Origin: Spirulina subsalsa PCC 9445
GTDB lineage: Bacteria > Cyanobacteriota > Cyanobacteriia > Cyanobacteriales > Spirulinaceae
Reading direction: 5' to 3'
Length of the DNA: 64,000 nucleotides
Assembly: GCF_000314005.1 (NCBI RefSeq)
Contig: NZ_JH980292.1
Coordinates: 3,880,121 to 3,944,120, forward strand
Shown: one piece after another, positions 18,194 through 60,044 of the stretch
How positions within the stretch are numbered: position 1 is the first letter of the stretch
Layout of the letters: every line of letters begins with the position of its first letter
Made by a program: the position numbers and the translations under genes
Notes under the pieces: generated by a model
The model's database searches: none
What the model was told of the DNA's origin: nothing
Seen by the model: only the letters and a program-made list of their open reading frames with translations

Positions 18194-18314
18194 CGATTCC
18201 GTCTGGATCTTAACTGGTTTTCTGTAATTTTAGACGCATACCCCCTAGGGTTTGTTGCCCAGATCCCCCAGCCCTCGTAAAATCTTCCTTAACTGCACCT
18301 GCCTAGAATCCCTG

Positions 18315-20876
18315 ATGAGTGAGACTGCCAAAACCGGATCGAAAAATGCCCCTCAACGTGATTACCGTCCCCTAGACCGGGATAAACTTTCCCCCATGAT
18401 GCAGCACTACATTGAGGTGAAAGAACAATATCCCAGCGCCCTCGTGTTGTACCGTTGTGGGGACTTTTTTGAGTGCTTCTTTCAAGATGCCGTCACCATC
18501 TCCCAAGAATTAGAGTTAGTGTTAACCAGTAAGGAGGGGGGGAAAGAAATTGGCCGGGTTTGTATGACAGGGGTGCCGCACCATGCCTTAGATCGCTATG
18601 TTGCCACCTTAGTTGAAAAAGGCTATGCGATCGCCATTTGTGACCAAGTAGAAGAAGCCGCCCAAGCCGCCGCCGAACGTCGCATGGTGGAACGCCAAGT
18701 CACCCGCCTCCTCACCCCAGGCACCCTCACCGACGATGGAATGTTAGCCGCCCGTCGCAACAACTTTTTAGCCTCCGTTGTCGTCGCCAAAGACCATTGG
18801 GGCCTCGCCTATGCCGACATCTCCACCGGAGAATTCTACACCACCCAATCCCAAGACCTCGAAGCCCTCACCCTAGAACTAATGCGTCTCCAGCCCTCGG
18901 AGATCTTACTCCCCACCGACGCACCGGATTTAGGGGGACTCCTGCGCCCCGGAGAAGCCCGCCAAGACCTCCCCGACTACCTCCCCGACTGTTTTTGCTA
19001 TTCCCTCCGCCCCCAGCAGTATTTTAGAGCCTCAGAAGCCCGAAATCGGCTCAAAGAGACGTTCAACGTCAATTCATTAGAGGGAATGGGCTGTGCCGAC
19101 CTCACCCTTGCCATTCGCGCTGCTGGGGGGCTACTAGAGTATCTCGAAGACACCCAAAAAGCCAATCAAGTCCCCCTACAACCCCTCCGCACCTATACCC
19201 TCACCGATTATTTAATCTTAGACCCCCAAACCCGGCGCAATTTAGAAATTCTGCAAACCGTGCGCGACGGCACCTTAAACGGCTCCCTACTCTGGGCGAT
19301 TGATCAAACCGTCACCGCTATGGGAGGGCGTGCCTTAAGGCGTTGGTTATTACAGCCCTTACTGGAGATTAAAGGCATACGCGCCCGCCAAGACACCATT
19401 CAAGAGTTAATCAATAACGCCTATTTACGCCATGAGTTACGGCAATTATTGCGACAATTTTATGACCTAGAACGACTCAGTGGCCGCGTGGGAGCAGGCA
19501 CGGCTAACGCTCGGGATTTAGTCTATTTATCCGACTCCCTTTGTCGTCTTTCGGAATTAGGAGAATTAGTGCAAGGTGGCAAATCCCTTTACCTCAAAGC
19601 CCTGCAAAAAGTCCCCCCGGAATTAGAACAACTGGGGCAGCACGTCCTGCGCCATTTGGTCGAATCTCCCCCCCAACATCTCAAAGAAGGGGGCTTAATT
19701 CGGGATGGGATTCACCCCCTCTTAGATGAACGTCGCCAACAGTTAGAACTGGATCAACAATGGTTAGCTAATTTAGAAGTAACCGAACGAGAAAGAACCG
19801 GAGTTTCTAACTTAAAAGTAGGCTATAATAAGACCTTTGGCTATTATATTAGTTTACCCCGTGCCAAAGCCGCACAAGCCCCCGATAATTACACCCGCAA
19901 ACAAACCCTTACCAACGAAGAACGCTATATCACCTCAGAACTAAAAGAACGAGAAACCCGCATCCTAACCGCTAAAGATGATCTCTATCAATTAGAGTAT
20001 GAAATCTTTACCGAATTGCGGGCAGAAATGGCCGAAAAAGGGCAAGAAATCCGGCAAATTGCCAAAGCCGTCGCCGCCATTGATGTGTTAGCGGGACTAG
20101 CCGAAATTGCCGTAGAACAGAACTATTGCTGTCCGATGATGACCGAAAACCGGGAAATCACCATCCGAGATGGTCGCCATCCCGTGGTTGAAAAAGCCTT
20201 GGGGTTAAACTTTTTTGTCCCCAACTCCACCACCCTCGGCAGTGGCACCGAGAACAATCATCCCGATTTAATTATTCTCACCGGCCCTAATGCCAGTGGG
20301 AAAAGCTGTTATTTGCGACAAGTGGGACTGATTCAACTGTTGGCACAAATTGGCAGTTTTGTTCCGGCCGAATCGGCGACTTTGGCAATTTGCGATCGCA
20401 TTTTTACCCGTGTTGGTGCCGTCGATGACCTAGCCACCGGACAATCCACCTTTATGGTTGAAATGAACGAAACCGCCAACATCCTCAACCATGCCACCCC
20501 CCAATCCCTCATCCTACTTGACGAAATTGGACGAGGAACCGCCACCTTTGACGGTTTATCCATCGCTTGGGCCGTTGCCGAATACCTCGCCACAGAAATC
20601 CAAGCGCGCACCATTTTCGCCACCCATTACCACGAACTCAACGACTTAGAATCCCTGCTCAACAACGTCGCCAACTATCAAGTCACCGTCAAAGAACTCC
20701 CCGATCGTATCCTCTTTTTACACCAAGTCCGACCCGGAGGCGCTGACCGTTCCTATGGCATCGAAGCAGGACGACTAGCGGGCTTACCCTCTGTGGTCAT
20801 TGACCGCGCTCGTCAAGTGATGGCAGAAATCGAGAAACATAGTAAAATCGCCATCGGTCAATCCCCCTCTACTTGA
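18315..20876 (+). CDS. mutS: DNA mismatch repair ATPase MutS
   Basis: An 853-aa MutS from ATG 18315; an upstream in-frame TTG adds 21 unrelated residues and is rejected. The mismatch-wedge motif F-x-E is Phe51-Phe-Glu53 in [10 protein letters not shown]. Walker A is GPNASGKS near residue 657, followed by [11 protein letters not shown] and [14 protein letters not shown] (Walker B and signature). The clamp and lever domains lie between. It recognises mispairs and recruits MutL. The region has a higher GC third position than the island genes, consistent with resident core DNA. Confidence 0.97.
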
Positions 20877-20961: not shown

Positions 20962-21108
20962 ATGCGCAAACTTCATGTCCTCACCCTAGGAACCTTGCTC
21001 CTCCTTGGTATTGCCTACAGCGCCACGTCCCAAACCCAAATCCCCCGTTTGAACCATCCCCTCTCCCCCCCCCATGACCACCGCTCAAAGTCCCTCCTTT
21101 CCCCTTGA
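20962..21108 (+). pseudogene. Signal-peptide leader of the CAP gene, out of frame by one base
   Basis: ATG 20962 encodes MRKLHVLTLGTLLLLGIAYS, a clear signal peptide, then runs into a C9 tract at 21065-21073. After it the frame reads HDHRSKSLLSP and stops at 21108. With eight Cs instead of nine it would fuse exactly into the CAP protein at its ATG 21074. This is either a switchable tract, a recent frameshift or a sequencing error. Confidence 0.75.
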
Positions 21109-21733
21109 TGGTACCCCCGTTTATGTGGAAAAAAACGGTCAATGGCGAGAAGCCCGTTTAACCCAATGGTATTGGCATAGTCAGACGGGAGAACAGTACA
21201 ACGTCTTTTATTTCGATGATCAAAGTACAGAAACAGGAGTCCCCCCCAGTCGGATTCGTAGCTTAGAACAAGCTCAAAACAGTGGCATCACCACCAATGT
21301 TTATGATCTCGACAGTCCAGCAGGTATTGAGCAAATGCTCAACGCCCATAATCAATGGCGGAGTCAGGTGGGAGTTCCTCCCCTCCGTTGGTCTACTCAA
21401 CTCTCCCGCTATGCTCAAGAATGGGCGGATCATCTTTTAGCGACCAACCAATTTGAGCATCGTTCCGACTCTTCCTATGGTGAAAACCTCGCCATGGCCT
21501 CTGGACAACAACTGAGTCCTAAGCGCGTGGTGGATATGTGGGGAGAAGAGATTAAGGATTACAACTACCAACAAAATAGTTGCACTCCGGGGGAAATGTG
21601 CGGTCACTATACCCAGATTGTCTGGAAAACCACGACTGAGGTCGGTTGTGCGGTCGCCCGTCAAGGTCGCCGTGAGGTCTGGGTGTGTAATTACAATCCC
21701 CCAGGAAATTATGTGGGACAAAGACCGTATTAA
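21074..21733 (+). CDS. CAP (SCP/PR-1) domain protein lacking its in-frame signal peptide
   Basis: 219 aa. Residues 1-80 include a segment GTPVYVEKNGQWREARLTQW resembling Tudor/SH3-like modules. The CAP domain follows from about 88: MLNAHNQWRSQVGVPPLRW, FEHRSDSSYGENLA and CGHYTQIVWKTTTEVGCA, containing the His and Glu residues typical of the CAP cavity. CAP proteins are normally secreted; here the signal peptide lies in another frame just upstream, joined through a C9 run. As written, the product would be cytoplasmic. Confidence 0.85.
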   Translation: MTTAQSPSFPLDGTPVYVEKNGQWREARLTQWYWHSQTGEQYNVFYFDDQSTETGVPPSRIRSLEQAQNSGITTNVYDLDSPAGIEQMLNAHNQWRSQVGVPPLRWSTQLSRYAQEWADHLLATNQFEHRSDSSYGENLAMASGQQLSPKRVVDMWGEEIKDYNYQQNSCTPGEMCGHYTQIVWKTTTEVGCAVARQGRREVWVCNYNPPGNYVGQRPY

Positions 21734-21990
21734 TGGGGAGCAGGGGAGCAGGGGAGCAGGGGAGCAGGGGAGCAGGGGAGCAGGGGAGAGGGGGAGCGGG
21801 GGAGTTGATAATTATTAACTATTCCCGACTCCCGACTCCCGACTCCCGACTCCCGACTCCCGATTCCCGACTCCCGACTCCCGACTCCCGATTCCCGACT
21901 CCCGACTCCCGACTCCCGATTCCCGACTCCCGACTCCCGACTCCCGACTCCCGACTCCCGACTCCCGATTCCCGACTCCCGACTCCCTAG
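21734..21990. repeat. Tandem GGGGAGCA octamers and CCCGACT heptamers
   Basis: From 21734 to about 21800 the unit (A)GGGGAGC is repeated with small variations. From about 21828 to 21988 roughly 23 copies of a 7-bp unit CCCGACT, with variants CCCGATT, run without interruption. A shorter reverse-orientation run follows acs at about 27190-27240. Others lie at 34590-34770, 35955-35998 and inside both MITE copies. The extended frames they create are not genes. Confidence 0.9.
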
Positions 21991-24710: not shown

Positions 24711-24878
24711 AGTTTTTTCTGTAAATCGGTTAGGCAAATATATTGTTACATTTTCTGGGGTGTAGGGGTCGGGGGTCGAGGAATTCAGAATTATTCCCTC
24801 TTCCCGACTCAAAAAAAATGGCCTTGAAAATGGGGCTTTTTGGGTTGACTTTTGACTTTTGCAATGATATTATCAGAC

Positions 24879-59475: not shown

Positions 59476-60044
59476 AGTGAAAAAAAACCTAAGACTTGCA
59501 ATGACCCGAGAAAATGTACCCTTGAGTTGAGCCTCCCCACTAGCAGATAAATTTCAACAGAGACGGTAGTTTTTCCCACTCGGGAACCGGAAAATTCCCC
59601 CCTTCTCATGAAATCCCCCTCCTTTCAAACATTAGGCTGCTCCCCCCAGATTCATTTTCTCTCCTTTCTTTATGCTACACCTTCCTCACCCCCCCCAGAA
59701 TCAGATTTTTACCCCGCCAGAATCTTTCCTCCCTCCCTAATTTTCCCCTCATCCTTTCTCTCCTTCTCCCTCGGTTAACTTTTATTTCTCTTAAGAGGGC
59801 AACTTCCGATCCCCCGGGATCAATTTGGACAAAACTTCCCCCTCCTCTCCCGAGATCCCCCCCCCTGTTGAGGGTTTTTGCAGCTAAGTAAACCCCCATC
59901 CTCCCCAATTTTTAGATCCCAGAAAATCATCAGCAAAAATATTTGAAGAAATTCTAGATTTTAACTTCTATATCAGATATGATAGGAAAATACTCGTTAA
60001 TCGTTACGAGGATTGCCTAAAATTTACACCAACATTAGGAAGAT
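59476..60044. promoter_or_regulatory. 569-bp gap: pyrimidine-rich tract and cyAbrB upstream region
   Basis: No gene is evident. From about 59625 to 59880 the plus strand is strongly pyrimidine-rich with several C6-C8 runs. Closer to abrB an AT-rich stretch contains ATATCAGATAT (a near-palindrome), TATGATA as a possible -10 element, and CTCGTTAATCGTTACGAG with 5-bp inverted arms. AGGAAG lies 3 bases before the abrB ATG. Confidence 0.5.

Follow-up and report, generated by a model that had tools for sequence, protein, structure and literature searches.

A nine-C run places an export signal one base out of register with its CAP domain in Spirulina subsalsa PCC 9445: probably a private insertion, real or miscalled

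Why is a signal peptide recorded one base out of register with the CAP domain that directly follows it? In the window, by which we mean the whole 64,000-nucleotide stretch analysed here, a run of nine Cs lies at the junction between the two. The first-pass annotation left three options for this arrangement: a slipped-strand switch between secreted and cytosolic forms, a frameshift that has become fixed, or an error. The comparisons described below point to a one-base insertion that is private to this record, whether real or miscalled, and speak against an evolved switch.

The junction and the protein it divides

The signal-peptide frame as recorded (20962..21108, plus strand) opens at ATG 20962 with MRKLHVLTLGTLLLLGIAYSATSQ, a signal peptide by its shape. 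It runs for 37 codons in register, crosses the C run and continues for 11 out-of-register codons to a TGA at 21106-21108, with 32 open bases beyond the run and 48 codons ahead of the stop. The C9 run itself (21065..21073, plus strand) lies between a T and an ATG, and codon comparison with Spirulina subsalsa FACHB-351 places it one base above the in-frame length. The ATG that follows begins the CAP-domain frame (21074..21733, plus strand; 219 aa, stop included in the coordinates), which encodes an N-terminal Tudor/SH3-like barrel and a CAP domain with four invariant cysteines. Because the starts at 20962 and 21074 are 112 bases apart, the two frames are one base out of register, just as the first-pass annotation had read them. 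Its further statement that eight Cs would fuse the parts exactly also holds: at that length ATG 21074 becomes an inner methionine codon, and the window codons pair one for one with those of FACHB-351 with zero gaps. Upstream of ATG 21074, the CAP frame contains no ATG, GTG or TTG as far back as its preceding in-frame stop.

The window has 530 open frames that start with ATG and span 34 codons or more; by a crude rule, 5 of them are as signal-like as the frame at ATG 20962. A chance look-alike appears unlikely from the sequence, as the peptide is also conserved, and fused, in FACHB-351. Upstream lies a frame (18252..20876, plus strand) named from its own sequence, which we take to be a MutS-like mismatch-repair ATPase. 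Just past the CAP stop, head-to-tail GGGGAGCA units followed by GACTCCC heptamers form a short-repeat array (21733-21990).

Membership of the downstream product in the CAP superfamily is clear. Pfam PF00188 matches residues 89-207 of the 219-aa frame (21338..21694, plus strand) with a score of 95.8 bits (cut-off 21.1), covering profile positions 1-117 of 117. Pfam recognises the CAP domain alone, and the barrel (21074-21330) has no match. The four cysteines are invariant in all seven aligned sequences, which is consistent, as expected, with an exported fold. By sequence, the closest solved structures to the CAP part are PR-1 proteins. The top Foldseek matches are CAP/PR-1 and GAPR-1 structures; Tudor, PWWP and chromo domains rank lower and presumably fall on the N-terminal barrel. 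In the AlphaFold model of the FACHB-351 protein (mean pLDDT 66.8), the barrel comprises five strands over residues ~45-106, and most of its blocks have a pLDDT close to 90 or higher; the CAP domain is less well predicted than the barrel, and the signal region falls below 50. These structural results have no bearing on whether the C run acts as a switch. The protein thus resembles the CAP/SCP/PR-1 family (PF00188) in its CAP domain, its four cysteines and its ancestral export signal, and differs in carrying a Tudor/SH3-like barrel at its N-terminus and, in this record, an export signal that is out of register.

Relatives and the ancestral state

We compared the junction with related sequences. 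Ten distinct, full-length relatives were counted (L002, L003, L004, L005, L006, L007, L008, L009, L014 and L021), with N-termini judged by eye; L017-L020 duplicate the records L004-L007 and were not counted again, and more distant or partial loci were excluded. All ten have a signal-like hydrophobic N-terminus and the CAP domain in one open frame. An in-frame signal peptide, which is usual for exported CAP members and is not demanded by PF00188, is therefore present in 10 of 10 relatives and absent from this record.

FACHB-351 is the sole genus mate among the 13 family genomes searched, and the only close relative compared. Its gene (record NZ_JAIHOM010000043.1) encodes 256 aa in a single fused frame, and the CAP part is 96% identical in protein sequence to that of the window. 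Its junction reads CTC TCT CCC TCC ATG, without a C run. Taken together, the single open frame in relatives and the gap-free fit at eight Cs indicate that the gene was ancestrally one exported CAP protein and that the extra C is private to this record. Against FACHB-351, dN/dS is 0.26 across the 34 signal codons preceding the run and 0.056 across the CAP frame; both parts have therefore been maintained as protein over most of the interval since the two Spirulina genomes diverged. Such selection on both parts means that the break is either recent or not real.

We consider it very probable that the locus is a single ancestral gene encoding an exported CAP protein, recorded with one extra C through a private slip or an error. 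A plausible course of events begins with T-to-C type substitutions that would have made a C run out of a mixed CTCTCTCCCTCC-like stretch, a step suggested by one relative and unrooted in direction. The resulting eight-C stretch would then have gained one more C, whether because replication slipped in the culture that was sequenced or because the sequence was miscalled or misassembled. With nine Cs, ribosomes starting at 20962 would lose the frame and produce a 48-residue peptide, the exported CAP protein would be absent save through rare slippage, and initiation inside, at ATG 21074, would give at most an unexported form. If the insertion occurred in the cell, the break would be recent and export would have been lost.

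Two attempts to widen the comparison yielded little. At E<=1e-60, only 4 of the 386 phylum genomes searched match the protein, its own genome included, too few to extend the junction comparison; three new loci stand outside the counts above, with no motif match in L242 and L244 and no comparable junction in L243. The FACHB-351 contig aligns to the window in three blocks only, none of them at the MutS-like neighbour, and the neighbourhood failed as a local yardstick of error, gene order not being kept in FACHB-351.

Long C runs and the case for a switch

Slipped-strand phase variation would have the run gain and lose a C within the population, with eight Cs as the export-on state and nine as off or cytosolic. 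The junction is well placed for this, since the nine-C run sits within the gene exactly where a change of one unit switches the frame, and the product is exported in relatives. In these respects it recalls the poly-C phase-variable genes of Neisseria, in which, according to the available text of PMC5084427, a poly-C tract also lies in the 5' coding part of exported-protein genes. Here, by comparison with that account, there is no conserved tract and no genome excess, and a single length is recorded. A C run at the junction is missing from all ten relatives (the nearest case is an in-frame C7 in the L009 linker), and among these ten the repeat is thus neither kept nor variable.

Nor are such runs commoner than chance. 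The window contains two C/G runs of at least nine against 1.63 expected under a first-order Markov chain, and the 5.32-Mb genome (two contigs) contains 90 distinct C>=9 runs, from 96 pattern matches: 84 of nine, six of ten and none longer. The second window run (59857-59865) lies outside coding frames, and its FACHB-351 counterpart is interrupted and of the same length.

For each of the 90 runs we asked whether one coding frame crosses it, using a codon model built from 91 long frames. One frame spanned 70 of them, a further 18 were put aside because the test showed no split gene, and two were flagged. This test may miss breaks near gene starts, as it missed L095, one of the 18 set aside, which is in frame near an oxidoreductase start. 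Besides the junction, the flagged run was L083, an ordinary boundary between two genes that by eye encode a methyltransferase and a glycosyltransferase, and not a break. Genome-wide poly-C switching was accordingly rejected: among the 90, a broken gene was found at the junction run alone, and the genome therefore lacks a family of loci of this kind. No C7-8 run was flagged among 152 in the stretches of this genome that we examined. For A8 runs in the window, 2 of 19 were flagged, at 24811 (the alaS start) and 59480; in each case the upstream score is marginal.

The same survey in FACHB-351 began with 76 runs, three of which were dropped near contig or stretch ends. Fifty-eight of the remaining 73 were spanned, 14 were set aside and one (L135) was flagged. 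The last was a false alarm, since an intact signal peptide belonging to the gene itself lies farther downstream, and true breaks at usable C>=9 runs in FACHB-351 therefore number 0 of 73. Contigs of one related genome, G005 (C61, C135 and C230), open with C runs of up to ~70, which look like assembly artefacts.

Run lengths also argue against active slippage. All 19 C9 runs common to both Spirulina genomes are equal in length when counted by eye, in a set limited to pairs of at least nine on both sides; eight-versus-nine pairs are invisible in it, since the FACHB-351 stretches had been chosen for runs >=9 only. A comparison free of that bias took 21 positions in the present genome, from 18 pieces, an additional run in L114 and two mutL runs. 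An alignment across the run was obtained at 14 of these positions, gap-free at 11 and with gaps at three (L092, L100 and L117), and seven did not align. The FACHB-351 counterparts mostly carry substitutions within the run. From these sequences, C runs in the genus would seem to arise mainly by substitution, and there is little sign that run length flickers between the two genomes.

The mutS and mutL frames are both intact, another point against phase variation. The mutL frame (L078, G000:C2:1651400-1655000, minus strand) has 561 codons and itself contains two in-frame C9 runs, at G000:C2:1652902-1652910 and 1653518-1653526; in FACHB-351 mutL both counterparts are interrupted by other bases and have the same length. 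Slippage at either mutL run would break mismatch repair.

On this evidence we regard phase variation at the junction as unlikely. The specific proposal that a free-living cyanobacterium toggles a Tudor-CAP protein between exported and cytosolic forms, through C8/C9 slippage before a start that most relatives keep, is in our judgement very unlikely. Judged by titles and the opening lines of abstracts, a literature search gave no paper on phase variation by homopolymer slipped-strand mispairing in cyanobacteria. Similarly, titles on Spirulina subsalsa PCC 9445, CAP proteins and cyanobacterial homopolymer slippage contained no report of this locus. The cause appears ordinary, and a switch is not supported; a mixture of lengths, if one existed, would mean a poly-C switch in a free-living phototroph.

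Mutation, miscall and translational alternatives

Returning to a private extra C, we put a real mutation and a base-call error at about even chances. That 70 runs are spanned in frame indicates that C9 miscalls are rare in this assembly, and one break in about seventy runs is within reach of either cause. The locus matches the singleton frame transitions of the GeneTack type, as the available portions of PMC3711429 describe them: a one-base homopolymer break, whole homologues and no sharing by relatives. We found no difference from that class, and error and mutation are inseparable here. The same survey of 1106 prokaryote genomes expected that, in its first category, frame breaks outside clusters would be sequencing errors and not genuine indels (PMC3711429, as available). 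No sequencing method for this assembly was found in the accessible text of PMC5472144.

If the extra C is real, the strain has lost export of one CAP-domain protein, and the gene would be a handy means of reporting slippage at C runs in a cyanobacterium. Should it prove an error, the result is a gene model without a signal peptide, liable to be misread as cytosolic. As a counterpoint to both, the extra C could be a segregating, reversible state. Genes for exported proteins are the usual target class of phase variation, a consideration that counts against a plain slip.

Could the nine-C gene still yield some fused protein? A ribosome slipping +1 within the run would restore the CAP frame, and CCC-C, a known +1-prone site, occurs at more than one step inside it. 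Slippage at CCC-C reaches up to 1% beside a start codon in E. coli, according to the available text of PMC4519876. Low yield would be expected at the junction. Moreover, a programmed +1 site should show a frame break at the same place in relatives, and none of the ten has one; the junction is thus not a conserved recoding site. We hold translational rescue of this kind to be very improbable.

We give hardly any credence to a two-start gene, in which translation gives an exported fusion as well as a cytosolic product begun at 21074, and the nine-C allele retains only the latter: an ATG or GTG does lie at most four codons before the conserved junction Q in 10 of 11 sequences, but that Met may have been retained for the mature N-terminus, the four invariant cysteines suit an exported protein, and a Shine-Dalgarno-like site precedes the inner start in 0 of 11. 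Cyanobacteria often initiate without Shine-Dalgarno sites; inner initiation is given little weight on the count of 0 of 11. The cytosolic form of the first-pass annotation is, to that extent, possible from ATG 21074. Finally, the genome encodes two further CAP-domain proteins whose N-terminal signals are intact by eye, and loss of the CAP protein broken at the junction may therefore be tolerated.
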